Of a stretch of DNA of 9,841 nucleotides, positions 3,616 to 6,449 are shown piece by piece. The notes beneath the pieces were generated by a model. That model was not told the origin of the DNA. It ran no database searches and was given only the letters and a program-made list of their open reading frames with translations. Origin of the DNA: Candidatus Altarchaeota archaeon (lineage in GTDB: Archaea > Altiarchaeota > Altiarchaeia > IMC4 > QMZM01); the NCBI GenBank assembly GCA_016931955.1, contig JAFGDV010000046.1, positions 1 to 9,841 on the forward strand. Direction: 5' to 3'. How positions within the stretch are numbered: the first letter of the stretch is position 1; each line of letters opens with the position of its first letter. A program made the position numbers and the translations under genes.

Positions 3616-4437
3616 CTATATCCTCTTCAAGATATCGTCTATCTGTTTTTTATCCCATCTGAGGAAGTAGTCCTGGTTCCTCGGCAACCAGCCCTCGATT
3701 ATGATACAGCCGTTATAAGGCTTCAATGCCTTGAGGAATTTCTCGAAGTCGATGTTCCCAAGCCCTATTGGTAGGTGGTCATCAATACCAGTGTTGTCGC
3801 TTATATGCACATGACTCACATAGTCCCTGAGACCCTCTGCGAAATGGTCAGGGCTCAGTCCGGTAGTGTTAGCGTGAGCGGAGTCCAGACAGACGCCAAA
3901 ATGGTCTGAATCAACCAAATCGCAGATGTGGCGGATCTCCTTTATATGCACACACAATGCCTTAGGCTTAGAGGATATGTTCTCCATGCACAACCACACG
4001 CCATTATCCTCTGAAAGCCTGGCCAGCGTCTTGAAGTTACGGACCATGATTTCTATTACGTGTTCCTTTCTGTACTTCCTCGACGCCAGATAGCCAGGAT
4101 GGACCACAACAATTCGAGAACCAAGATAGCTTGCGGTTTCAATGCACTCCGAGACCTGTTTTATCACCTCCTTCCTAACCCCGAGGTTCAATGTGGCAAT
4201 ATTAAGGTCATGGTAGGGCGCATGCAATGAAACACCTATATCCAGCGTGCTCAGTATGTCCTTTATCTCTTCCTTGGTCTGCTTGGCCTTTGGAGTACCC
4301 CAGCCCCTGAACATCGGACCCTGACAGTGTATCTCAGCGCAATCAAACTTCAGGTCATCTGCTATATGCCCTAATATGTAACCCATGTCCAGTTTCTCAT
4401 AGTCCCAGAATATCTGGGTTGAAATACCGACTTCCAT
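3616..4437 (-). CDS. Endonuclease IV/xylose isomerase-like TIM-barrel metalloenzyme
   Basis: The 273-residue protein is an AP endonuclease 2/xylose isomerase-like TIM barrel (PF01261 type). Visible metal-site motifs are AEIH (34-37), LHAPYHDLN (71-79), VVHPGY (111-116), CMENIS (150-155), GVCLDSAHAN (181-190), HVHISDNTGIDDHLPIGLG (209-227) and IIEGW (246-250). Candidates for all nine ligands of the E. coli endonuclease IV tri-zinc site can be placed: H72, H113, E152, D185, H188, H211, D219, H221 and E248. The DxH...G.G.IDF segment and overall spacing are also found in sugar-phosphate isomerases/epimerases of the superfamily, so the reaction (AP-site or 3'-end cleavage versus sugar isomerisation) is open. 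It follows the RtcB-like gene after one base, has its own Shine-Dalgarno, and is surely co-translated with it. Confidence 0.8.
   Translation of the reverse strand: MEVGISTQIFWDYEKLDMGYILGHIADDLKFDCAEIHCQGPMFRGWGTPKAKQTKEEIKDILSTLDIGVSLHAPYHDLNIATLNLGVRKEVIKQVSECIETASYLGSRIVVVHPGYLASRKYRKEHVIEIMVRNFKTLARLSEDNGVWLCMENISSKPKALCVHIKEIRHICDLVDSDHFGVCLDSAHANTTGLSPDHFAEGLRDYVSHVHISDNTGIDDHLPIGLGNIDFEKFLKALKPYNGCIIIEGWLPRNQDYFLRWDKKQIDDILKRI
3646..3651 (+). terminator. Possible oligo-T terminator of the small membrane protein gene
   Basis: A run of six T lies 34 bases after the stop of the 3376-3612 gene, inside the 3' end of the convergent gene. It is consistent with an archaeal T-run terminator but short. 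No comparable T-run follows the TIM-barrel gene on the other strand. Confidence 0.3.
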
Positions 4438-4438
4438 C

Positions 4439-5686
4439 TTACACCTTCAACGTCATCATGGGTTGGAGTTTAGCCACCGGCGTTCCTAGATCGTACTCCA
4501 TCACCTTCTCTATCACGCTGCTGCCTCGATAATCAAAGGGCAGTTCGTGTGGATTCATGATGATCATCTCGCCGAAGCTTGACACTCCTCTCTTAACTGT
4601 TTCTGTTATCTCACTCACCTTTGAGACTGGCTTAGTGTCGCTCATTATGAAGTGATTGCCGATCCCTGTTTTAACAACCTCTATCTTAGAGTACTGCAGA
4701 TTAATCTTGTAGCCTCCGCCGTGCGGGAGTATGTTGATGTTCCTCAAGCCATCCAACAACCCTACCTCCTCAGCCCTATTATAGAAGCCAGTCATCCCCA
4801 ACACATCATCGGAGAGATTCTCTTTTCCCTTGAATACGTACACCGGATGATCCCACCTCAGCGCAACTGGAAAGAGGGCCTTACCCTTAGGATAGGAGCC
4901 GTCCATGGTGTCATGGCAGCCTAACCTGACCTCGTTCTTTGAAAACAATCCCTGATGGGTTAGATTCGAAACAATCTCACAATTCCCAAGAACCGCCCTG
5001 GCAAGAACCTCCCTCCTCCTCTTCGAGAACCCATTGAATTCCTCCCACCTCCGATAGTATTCTTTACCGGCCTGACCATCCAAGATCGATATCCTGCCTA
5101 TGGGTGTTTCAACCCACTCACCATCGTCTATCATGCCATAGATTTGATCCTTCATCTCGGGGGAGGAGCCGTGAACTATCGCATACCAACCGTCTTTGGG
5201 CATGACATCCTCGACTTCGGGTGACACCCCAAGGGGCTTATAGAACTCAAAAAAATGGTTGCCTTTGCCGAAGTCCGGAGTCAATTTAATGCCGTCAAGA
5301 TATATGTCTGAGTTTTCGACCTCCGCAGCCTTCTTGATCAGTTCCTCCTTGGAGGGCATTTCATCTAATCTCAAGAGCAGCATTCCGCAGCTGTTTGGTC
5401 TGAGTTCCGGGAAAAAGACGCCTTCATCAGGCCAGCGAATCACTGCACCGTAGCCGAACCCACTACCCCAGCGCCCCACGTTCCGGGTTATCGTCGCATC
5501 CGGTCCAAAGACACAATACACGTCTCCACTATCTAATGCATACATCATCTTTCCAAGGCCATAGCGCATGTTCTCATAGGACAACGCAGAGGACATGTCC
5601 CTTAATCCAAGCGAGAATATCCTCTGACCACTGAACTGCAGTAATTCATTCCCCGACATCCGGCTTATCTTCGTTTCCACTTTCAT
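4439..5686 (-). CDS. Divergent RtcB-like protein (RNA-ligase fold, altered active site)
   Basis: The 415-residue protein is not an ordinary member of any family I recognise, but its motif order follows RtcB, the Mn/GTP-dependent 3'-phosphate RNA ligase. PNSCGMLLLR (97-106) aligns with RtcB DxxCGxRxxR, keeping C100. GKGNHFFEF (140-148) aligns with GxGNHFxE, keeping N143, H144 and E147. VHGSS (171-175) matches the next His, H172. NLTHQGLF (241-248) matches HNIA, with H244. PKGKALFP (266-273) matches RKGATRAFP. LPHGGGYKI (320-328) matches CHGAGRxxS, with H322 at the guanylylated-His position. VAKLQPMMTLKV (404-415) matches VARLRPLGVxKG, keeping a penultimate-region Lys (K414). Differences: the metal-binding Asp is Pro97, the Arg of HGAGR is Tyr326, and C100-H144 spacing is 44 residues against about 105 in the Pyrococcus enzyme. 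Ligase activity is therefore uncertain. It is the first gene of a two-gene operon. Confidence 0.7.
   Translation of the reverse strand: MKVETKISRMSGNELLQFSGQRIFSLGLRDMSSALSYENMRYGLGKMMYALDSGDVYCVFGPDATITRNVGRWGSGFGYGAVIRWPDEGVFFPELRPNSCGMLLLRLDEMPSKEELIKKAAEVENSDIYLDGIKLTPDFGKGNHFFEFYKPLGVSPEVEDVMPKDGWYAIVHGSSPEMKDQIYGMIDDGEWVETPIGRISILDGQAGKEYYRRWEEFNGFSKRRREVLARAVLGNCEIVSNLTHQGLFSKNEVRLGCHDTMDGSYPKGKALFPVALRWDHPVYVFKGKENLSDDVLGMTGFYNRAEEVGLLDGLRNINILPHGGGYKINLQYSKIEVVKTGIGNHFIMSDTKPVSKVSEITETVKRGVSSFGEMIIMNPHELPFDYRGSSVIEKVMEYDLGTPVAKLQPMMTLKV
4442..4446 (-). promoter_or_regulatory. Shine-Dalgarno of the TIM-barrel gene
   Basis: The reverse strand reads AGGTG four bases before the ATG at 4437, a perfect match to the 16S anti-Shine-Dalgarno core. 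It lies in the last codons of the RtcB-like gene, whose TAA ends one base before the ATG. This fixes the start and implies coupled translation of the two proteins. Confidence 0.7.
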
Positions 5687-5729
5687 CTAAGATTGAGTAT
5701 TATTATTTCTATCAGTATAATAATAAAAG
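5687..5729. promoter_or_regulatory. Divergent promoter region between the RtcB-like gene and trmI-polB
   Basis: This 43-base spacer is nearly all A and T and must hold both promoters. For the forward operon, TATTATT at about 5699-5706 is centred roughly 27 bases before the ATG at 5730, fitting a leaderless transcript. For the reverse operon, TTTATTATTA (reverse strand, about 5718-5728) is centred about 36 bases before the ATG at 5686, fitting a leader of about 10 bases. The initiation complexes would overlap, so the two operons may compete. The individual boxes are guesses from position. Confidence 0.4.
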
Positions 5730-6449
5730 ATGTACCTGCTCATAGATGAAAAGGGAAGACACTATCTCGTGAGAGGCGACTCCGACGTGCACACAAACTA
5801 TGGAGTCATCAAAGCGGACGACCTCAAGGAGGAAAACATCGGGGGAGAAATAGAAACACATACAGGCAGGAGATTCTTTCTTGTGAGACCTGATGCGCTG
5901 GATTTCATCAAGAAGGCTAAAAAGGGCCCTCAAAGCGTAACGCTGAAGGACTGCGGACTCATCATAGCTTATACTGGAGTCAGATCAGGGAGCAAGGTAG
6001 TGGACGCTGGAACAGGCTCAGGGATAACGTCCATGTTCCTCGCAAACATCGTATACCCGGAAAGGCTCACAACATATGAGGTCAGGGAAGACTTTTCAGA
6101 GATCGCGAGAGAGAACTTTAGGAAGGCGCGGATAGATAACATCGAACTGAAGATGAAGAGCATATATGATGGAATCGATGAGACAGACCTCGACCTAATC
6201 AACCTCGACCTCCCAGAGCCTTGGAGGGTCGTCGAACACGCTAGATCCTCCCTGAAGGTCGGAGGCTTTCTGGTATCGTATTCTCCAAGCATCGAACAGA
6301 GCAAGAAGTTCCACGACGAACTGGAAGGCTTCGAGTCTGAAACCGTTGAGTGTCTGGTCAGAAACTGGGATATGAAGATCGTGCGCCCTTATTCGAGGAT
6401 GCTTGGACATACAGGCTTCCTCACATTCGCAAGATTGATAAAAAGATGA
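5730..6449 (+). CDS. trmI: tRNA (adenine-N1)-methyltransferase, TrmI-like (m1A57/58)
   Basis: The 239-residue protein has the two-part build of archaeal TrmI: a small N-terminal beta domain (about 1-60) and a class I SAM-dependent methyltransferase domain. Motif I is VVDAGTGSG (90-98), which binds SAM. The acidic residue of motif II is E117 in YEVRED. The catalytic-site motif LDLPEPW (159-165) corresponds to the family's LDLPxPW. The C-terminal signature MLGHTGFLTFAR (224-235) matches the conserved SHTGFL end. It would place m1A at positions 57/58 in the T-loop of tRNAs, where the archaeal enzyme is known to modify both. The start follows an AT-rich divergent spacer without a Shine-Dalgarno. 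Its TGA overlaps the polB start as ATGA. Confidence 0.92.
   Translation: MYLLIDEKGRHYLVRGDSDVHTNYGVIKADDLKEENIGGEIETHTGRRFFLVRPDALDFIKKAKKGPQSVTLKDCGLIIAYTGVRSGSKVVDAGTGSGITSMFLANIVYPERLTTYEVREDFSEIARENFRKARIDNIELKMKSIYDGIDETDLDLINLDLPEPWRVVEHARSSLKVGGFLVSYSPSIEQSKKFHDELEGFESETVECLVRNWDMKIVRPYSRMLGHTGFLTFARLIKR

Follow-up and report, generated by a model that had tools for sequence, protein, structure and literature searches.

A distant RtcB homologue of Altiarchaeota with a predicted guanylylation site and without several residues fixed in RtcB ligases

Introduction

Whether the fold of the transfer RNA (tRNA)-splicing ligase RtcB also serves another reaction is a question raised by a contig of Candidatus Altarchaeota archaeon (JAFGDV010000046.1), the 9,841 nucleotides of which are the whole stretch analysed here and are called the window. 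On its minus strand, from 5686 to 4439 with the stop codon included, lies an open reading frame (ORF) for an RtcB-like protein of 415 residues, hereafter T. An initial annotation described T as a strongly diverged member of a separate RtcB-related family that may act on another substrate or do another reaction. To our knowledge, no activity other than that of RtcB has been characterised on this fold, and RtcB itself is known solely as a ligase of RNA (and of DNA 3' ends). We asked whether T is a true relative of RtcB, which of the RtcB residues it has kept, and what its genomic surroundings suggest about its role.

The gene call is supported by the ORF, by orthologues and by the homology to RtcB. 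Its coordinates contain one minus-strand ORF, and the plus strand of 4439-5686 has many stops. Orthologues within the window's family are 60-78% identical to T and free of internal stops, and relatives at 74% and 68% identity are found in contigs of Candidatus Altiarchaeota and Altiarchaeales. The host genome assembly is 1.55 Mb. RtcB residues are numbered throughout as in Pyrococcus horikoshii RtcB.

Homology of T to RtcB

Profile-profile comparison, one of the checks that the initial annotation had proposed, supported the relation to RtcB. The T family aligned with a diverse RtcB set, which includes eight bacterial RtcBs, over residues 58-414 with E 4.8e-13 and a score of 101.7, and the maximum obtained in 200 column shuffles was 26.7. 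Against archaeal RtcBs the E value was 2.4e-6, and a previous comparison restricted to archaeal RtcBs had scored 44.8, where 100 shuffles reached 23.9 at most. The N-terminal half of T alone scored 13.6 with the archaea-only set, below the shuffles. The diverse set carries the alignment to residue 58, taking in Asp63 and Cys100, and it is because of this full-length alignment and the invariance of the two residues that we equate them with Asp65 and Cys98 of RtcB.

A profile of 30 members of the T family was also searched against 177,635 PDB sequences. At E of 10 or below it returned RtcB entries only, with Thermus TTHA1785 as the best (8.7e-5). Matches to TFIIB that a 13-row profile had given in the PDB had E values of 0.46 or worse and were rejected as chance; the 30-row profile was used instead. 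As a single sequence, T found nothing in the PDB and had no match in Pfam, and an NCBIfam scan gave a single weak match, in which the final 26 residues met the RtcB2 model PRK09588 at E 0.0065 with 15.5 bits, below the cut-off of 407. When the 30 members were scanned singly, PRK09588 was matched by 11 of them (best E 1.6e-5) and PF01139 by one (E 0.055); T itself does not reach the curated cut-off of PF01139.

The resemblance of motifs is not a matter of chance, because five residues are invariant and align with catalytic residues of RtcB within a highly significant profile-profile alignment; the shuffle controls exclude a chance likeness. With significant profile similarity across the catalytic region, T is a genuine distant homologue of RtcB. 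It belongs to a separate family, as the initial annotation had proposed: Pfam gave no match for T, and the matches to the RtcB2 model in NCBIfam stayed below threshold.

RtcB2 (PRK09588/TIGR03073), the release-factor-H-linked form, was the best match of the T family in the family libraries. The two are near each other in length (379-405 residues in RtcB2), carry the metal, His and Lys residues in the same order, and share a shortened segment between the Cys and the NHxxE motif. The claim that about 60 residues are missing from this segment holds in so far as the segment of T is short, but most of the shortening is common to short bacterial RtcBs: Cys and Asn are 43 positions apart in T, compared with 59 for RtcB2, 69-71 for a pair of plasmid RtcBs and 104 for the canonical RtcB of the host. 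T differs from RtcB2 in genomic setting, since the RtcB2 gene adjoins prfH and the T gene adjoins phosphoesterases, and in residues that RtcB2 keeps and T does not (below). T thus has neither the score nor the prfH linkage of an RtcB2, and no release factor shared a neighbour cluster with the T family in 41 clustered neighbourhoods, for which the identification of neighbours covered recurrent and selected ones.

Active-site residues kept by T

In RtcB, metal A is bound by C98, H234 and H329, and metal B by D95, C98 and H203; H404 carries guanosine monophosphate (GMP), N202 contacts the triphosphate, and F204, E206 and K480 contact guanine (PMC10630183, PMC8668186, PMC3973293). D65 is required for the His-GMP bond (PMC3973293). 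We examined these positions in an alignment of 62 homologues of T, where a lower denominator gives the number of sequences covering the column.

Canonical archaeal RtcB (PF01139; P. horikoshii PH1602, PDB 1uc2/4dwq) has D65, C98, N202, H203, F204, H234, H329, H404, Y451 and K480 colinear with residues of T. Five of the counterparts are conserved in every homologue that covers them. On the minus strand, like all codons given here, these are Cys100 (5387-5389; 61/61), aligned with Cys98 that bridges the metals; His144 (5255-5257; 61/61), aligned with His203 of metal B; His172 (5171-5173; 61/61) and His244 (4955-4957; 62/62), aligned with His234 and His329 of metal A; and His322 (4721-4723; 62/62), aligned with the guanylylated His404. 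From homology, the five would be expected to meet in one pocket. The metal A ligands and the nucleophile of RtcB therefore all have aligned, invariant equivalents in T.

Conservation extends to the residues around them. Asp63 (5498-5500), aligned with Asp65 of the MPD motif, is Asp in 60 of 62 homologues, and Lys414 (4445-4447), aligned with the guanine contact Lys480, is Lys in 58 of 62. N143 corresponds to N202 (57/62), F145 to F204 (61/61) and Y386 to Y451 (56/62); at E381, the equivalent of E446, 46 of the 62 have Glu and 6 have Asp. The motifs of the initial annotation (Cys100, N143-H144-x-x-E147, H172, H244, H322-GGG-Y326 and a C-terminal KLQP...LK) were all where it had placed them, and the spacing from H244 to H322 is indeed 78. 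Its PKGKALFP (266-273) is present in T too, but is no family motif and does not align with the HRKGA of RtcB, for which the counterpart is R254-L255-G256.

Residues lost or altered in T

Five residues that are all kept in the eight bacterial RtcBs and in the host RtcB, and also in RtcB2, have no equivalent in T: D95, R238, N330, the Lys of HRKG and R408 are replaced by Pro97, Pro176, Gln245, Leu255 and Tyr326. The replacement of the metal-B Asp had been recognised by the initial annotation, and Pro97 (5396-5398), three residues ahead of Cys100, does align at the Asp95 position; the column is Pro in 56 of 62 sequences and Asp in none, so that of the pair Asp95 and His203 the His alone (His144) is kept. 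Likewise, Tyr326 aligns at R408, confirming that the Arg of HGAGR has been replaced. Asn98, two residues before Cys100, is found family-wide (57 Asn, 4 Asp), and may stand in for the missing Asp. The alignment thus indicates that T retains the ligands of metal A, the nucleophile and most of the pocket for the nucleotide, but neither an intact metal B set nor the residues that never change in the ligases.

This combination could also suggest a metal-dependent phosphohydrolase that has no nucleotidyl transfer and, for instance, opens cyclic phosphodiesters as in the first half-reaction of RtcB. Such an enzyme would be consistent with invariant metal-A ligands beside a metal-B Asp and a guanine-contacting Glu that are not conserved. 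We consider it very improbable, because the residues for GMP transfer and guanine binding are kept, with His322 in 62/62, Asp63 in 60/62 and Lys414 in 58/62 homologues.

The proteins also differ in charge. Canonical RtcB is basic and T is acidic: T proteins have a median isoelectric point of 6.3 and a net charge of -4, whereas RtcBs from the lineages that carry T have 8.8 and +8. The acidic charge makes a nucleic-acid substrate for T less likely.

Distribution of T and co-occurrence with canonical RtcB

Within the window's family (Altiarchaeales), T was present in 11 of the 13 genomes, the two exceptions being incomplete (83% and 60%). Another 16 genomes of the host's class were searched, and none had it. 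It was present in 103 of 227 genomes of a second phylum, taken here as Asgard archaea, and in 2 of 23 genomes of a third phylum. In the tree, the pair from the third phylum groups with Altiarchaeales (support 96/94), which suggests transfer. No relative was found in viral contigs or phage records, and a viral origin of T was rejected.

The initial annotation had also suggested looking for a canonical rtcB elsewhere in the genome. The host encodes one separately from T (590 bits). Across the window's family, 11 of the 13 genomes gave a canonical RtcB, as did 19 of the 20 T-bearing genomes sampled outside it. Archease was present in all eight genomes checked. The presence of both in genomes with T indicates that T is additional to RtcB, and led us to reject T as a substitute for it.

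Two observations concern the canonical RtcB genes themselves. In one genome (G319; L115:877-2733 and 4938-6146), canonical RtcB and Archease genes form a pair 2.2 kb away from T. In two Asgard-type genomes (L088 and L099 of G421; L089 and L100 of G400), canonical RtcB was matched in two pieces, model positions 1-50 or 1-76 and then 44/45-426, within single open frames of 993-997 codons, a pattern as an intein insertion would give.

Some Asgard genomes carry second copies of T that form a distant paralogue group. The second paralogue of Lokiarchaeal type (L138:6847-12046, L134:2082-7187) lies in a cluster with glycosyltransferase, nucleotidyltransferase and CDP-alcohol phosphotransferase genes, resembling a polar head-group pathway. 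Genes of a third distant group (L135:8091-9371, L136:8783-10066, L139:8584-9840) adjoin metallophosphoesterase and GDPD genes; the C-terminus of these proteins differs, with His or Tyr at the position of Lys414.

Gene neighbourhood

The next gene downstream of T, beginning 1 base past its stop codon on the same strand (3616-4437, minus), codes for an endonuclease-IV-like TIM-barrel phosphoesterase of the MJ1311 family. It matched Pfam AP_endonuc_2 with E 3.4e-44, and its best PDB match was MJ1311 (3wqo, E 4.4e-32), which is titled an uncharacterised protein; by eye, all nine zinc-ligand positions of endonuclease IV are kept. The likeness to the MJ1311-type TIM barrel belongs to this partner gene and not to T. 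Seven genomes have a close homologue of the TIM barrel (at least 48% identity), each as one copy, and in all 7 it adjoins T; one of these genomes is outside Altiarchaeota.

In other lineages, the place beside T can be taken by other phosphoesterases. An HD hydrolase subfamily (at least 49% identity) was present as one copy per genome in seven genomes and adjoined T in six of them. In the third phylum, T is followed by the HD protein in one genome and by the TIM barrel in the other, in the same slot. Close homologues of both were found together in none of the genomes searched for both. In still other groups, the genes flanking T code for metallophosphoesterases and GDPD proteins.

Such partners might heal nucleic-acid ends, in which case T could be, besides RtcB, another enzyme that joins RNA (or DNA) ends or caps 3' ends, acting for example on ribosomal RNA (rRNA) or damaged ends. 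The endonuclease-IV-like enzyme, the HD hydrolase and the metallophosphoesterases are each a possible end-healing activity, and the nearest described relatives of T by profile, the release-factor-H-linked RtcB2 ligases (PRK09588), are repair enzymes. Against this stand the loss of R238, N330, the HRKG Lys and R408, the acidic character of T, and the co-occurrence of T with canonical RtcB and Archease. EndA and PF01139 RtcB were the sole enzymes named in a survey of rRNA circularisation in archaea (PMC12918454). We therefore regard an end-joining role as somewhat unlikely.

The neighbours of the distant paralogues point in another direction. T might use the guanosine triphosphate (GTP) chemistry of RtcB to make a small-molecule phosphodiester or a nucleotide-activated intermediate, such as a lipid head group or an inositol or sugar phosphate. 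This would fit the glycosyltransferase, nucleotidyltransferase and CDP-alcohol phosphotransferase around the Lokiarchaeal-type paralogue (L134, L138), the position of the other group between metallophosphoesterase and GDPD (L135, L136), the acidic character of T, and a neighbour whose nearest solved relative bears no functional name. But these contexts come from paralogues with 25-30% identity and may not apply to the protein of the window, so that a small-molecule product of this kind seems unlikely to us.

On the other side of T, a GCD14/TrmI-like tRNA methyltransferase gene (5730-6449, plus) points away from T and is separated from it by 43 bases; several Altiarchaeales genomes have close homologues of this gene in the corresponding position. 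Farther away, a GH15-like ORF (964-2028, plus) matched the oligosaccharide amylase model TIGR01577 at its C-terminal end alone, over model positions 269-611 of 616, and may be a short or truncated glucoamylase.

Proposed function of T

We propose that T is a GTP-dependent guanylyltransferase or phosphodiester-forming enzyme that acts on a substrate other than a tRNA exon, together with an exchangeable phosphoesterase partner. Drawn from sequence comparison and gene context, this proposal has in our estimate a probability of roughly 0.45. The lost residues, the charge and the gene neighbours point to a different substrate or reaction, in agreement with the initial annotation. A tRNA exon is an improbable acceptor, because T lacks the Arg, Asn and Lys residues kept in all RtcBs examined, is acidic, and occurs together with a normal RtcB.

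In the proposed mechanism, GTP would enter the conserved pocket of T, which would bind a divalent metal pair, with site A formed by Cys100, His172 and His244 and site B altered. His322 would take GMP from GTP with the help of metal A, and the GMP would be handed to a phosphomonoester to give an activated X-pp-G. A possible next step would be the making of a phosphodiester with release of GMP. The adjoining phosphoesterase would either prepare the substrate or strip a phosphate or cap from the product. There is a precedent for a guanylyltransferase that lacks the metal-B Asp: with Archease, the D95A variant of P. horikoshii RtcB regained guanylylation of the RNA 3'-phosphate but not ligation (PMC3973293).

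Several points weigh against this proposal. Human RTCB without the same Asp shows only weak guanylylation, which limits the argument from D95A, and the metal-B site of T may be without metal, or Asn98 may replace the Asp. The E147 column, equivalent to the guanine-contacting Glu206, has 25 Asp, 14 Glu and 14 Asn, so that the Glu of NHxxE, listed in the initial annotation among the motifs of T, is not a family-wide feature; because this contact is not kept across the family, the nucleotide used by T may differ. Many T loci, including the main Lokiarchaeal-type group and five Altiarchaeales genomes, have no adjoining phosphoesterase, and the linkages that exist represent few events rather than independent counts, because they are co-inherited within clades. 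The AlphaFold2 model of T, made from three sequences only, had a predicted local distance difference test score (pLDDT) of 29.9 and was discarded.

Significance

Our literature search, conducted without subscription papers, found no description of the T family. We suggest, tentatively and with rather less than even confidence, that it is an undescribed family of Asgard archaea and Altiarchaeota in which the His-GMP chemistry of RtcB has been turned from the ligation of RNA to the activation of a non-RNA phosphate, with a phosphoesterase partner that has been swapped between unrelated folds. If this is true, a widespread family that keeps the residues for GMP transfer and drops ones that all RtcBs examined retain would show that RtcB chemistry has been reused, and a gene that nearly half of the searched Asgard genomes carry would gain a function. 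The family is also a natural test of the role of the metal-B Asp, the removal of which in P. horikoshii RtcB splits guanylylation from ligation (PMC3973293).
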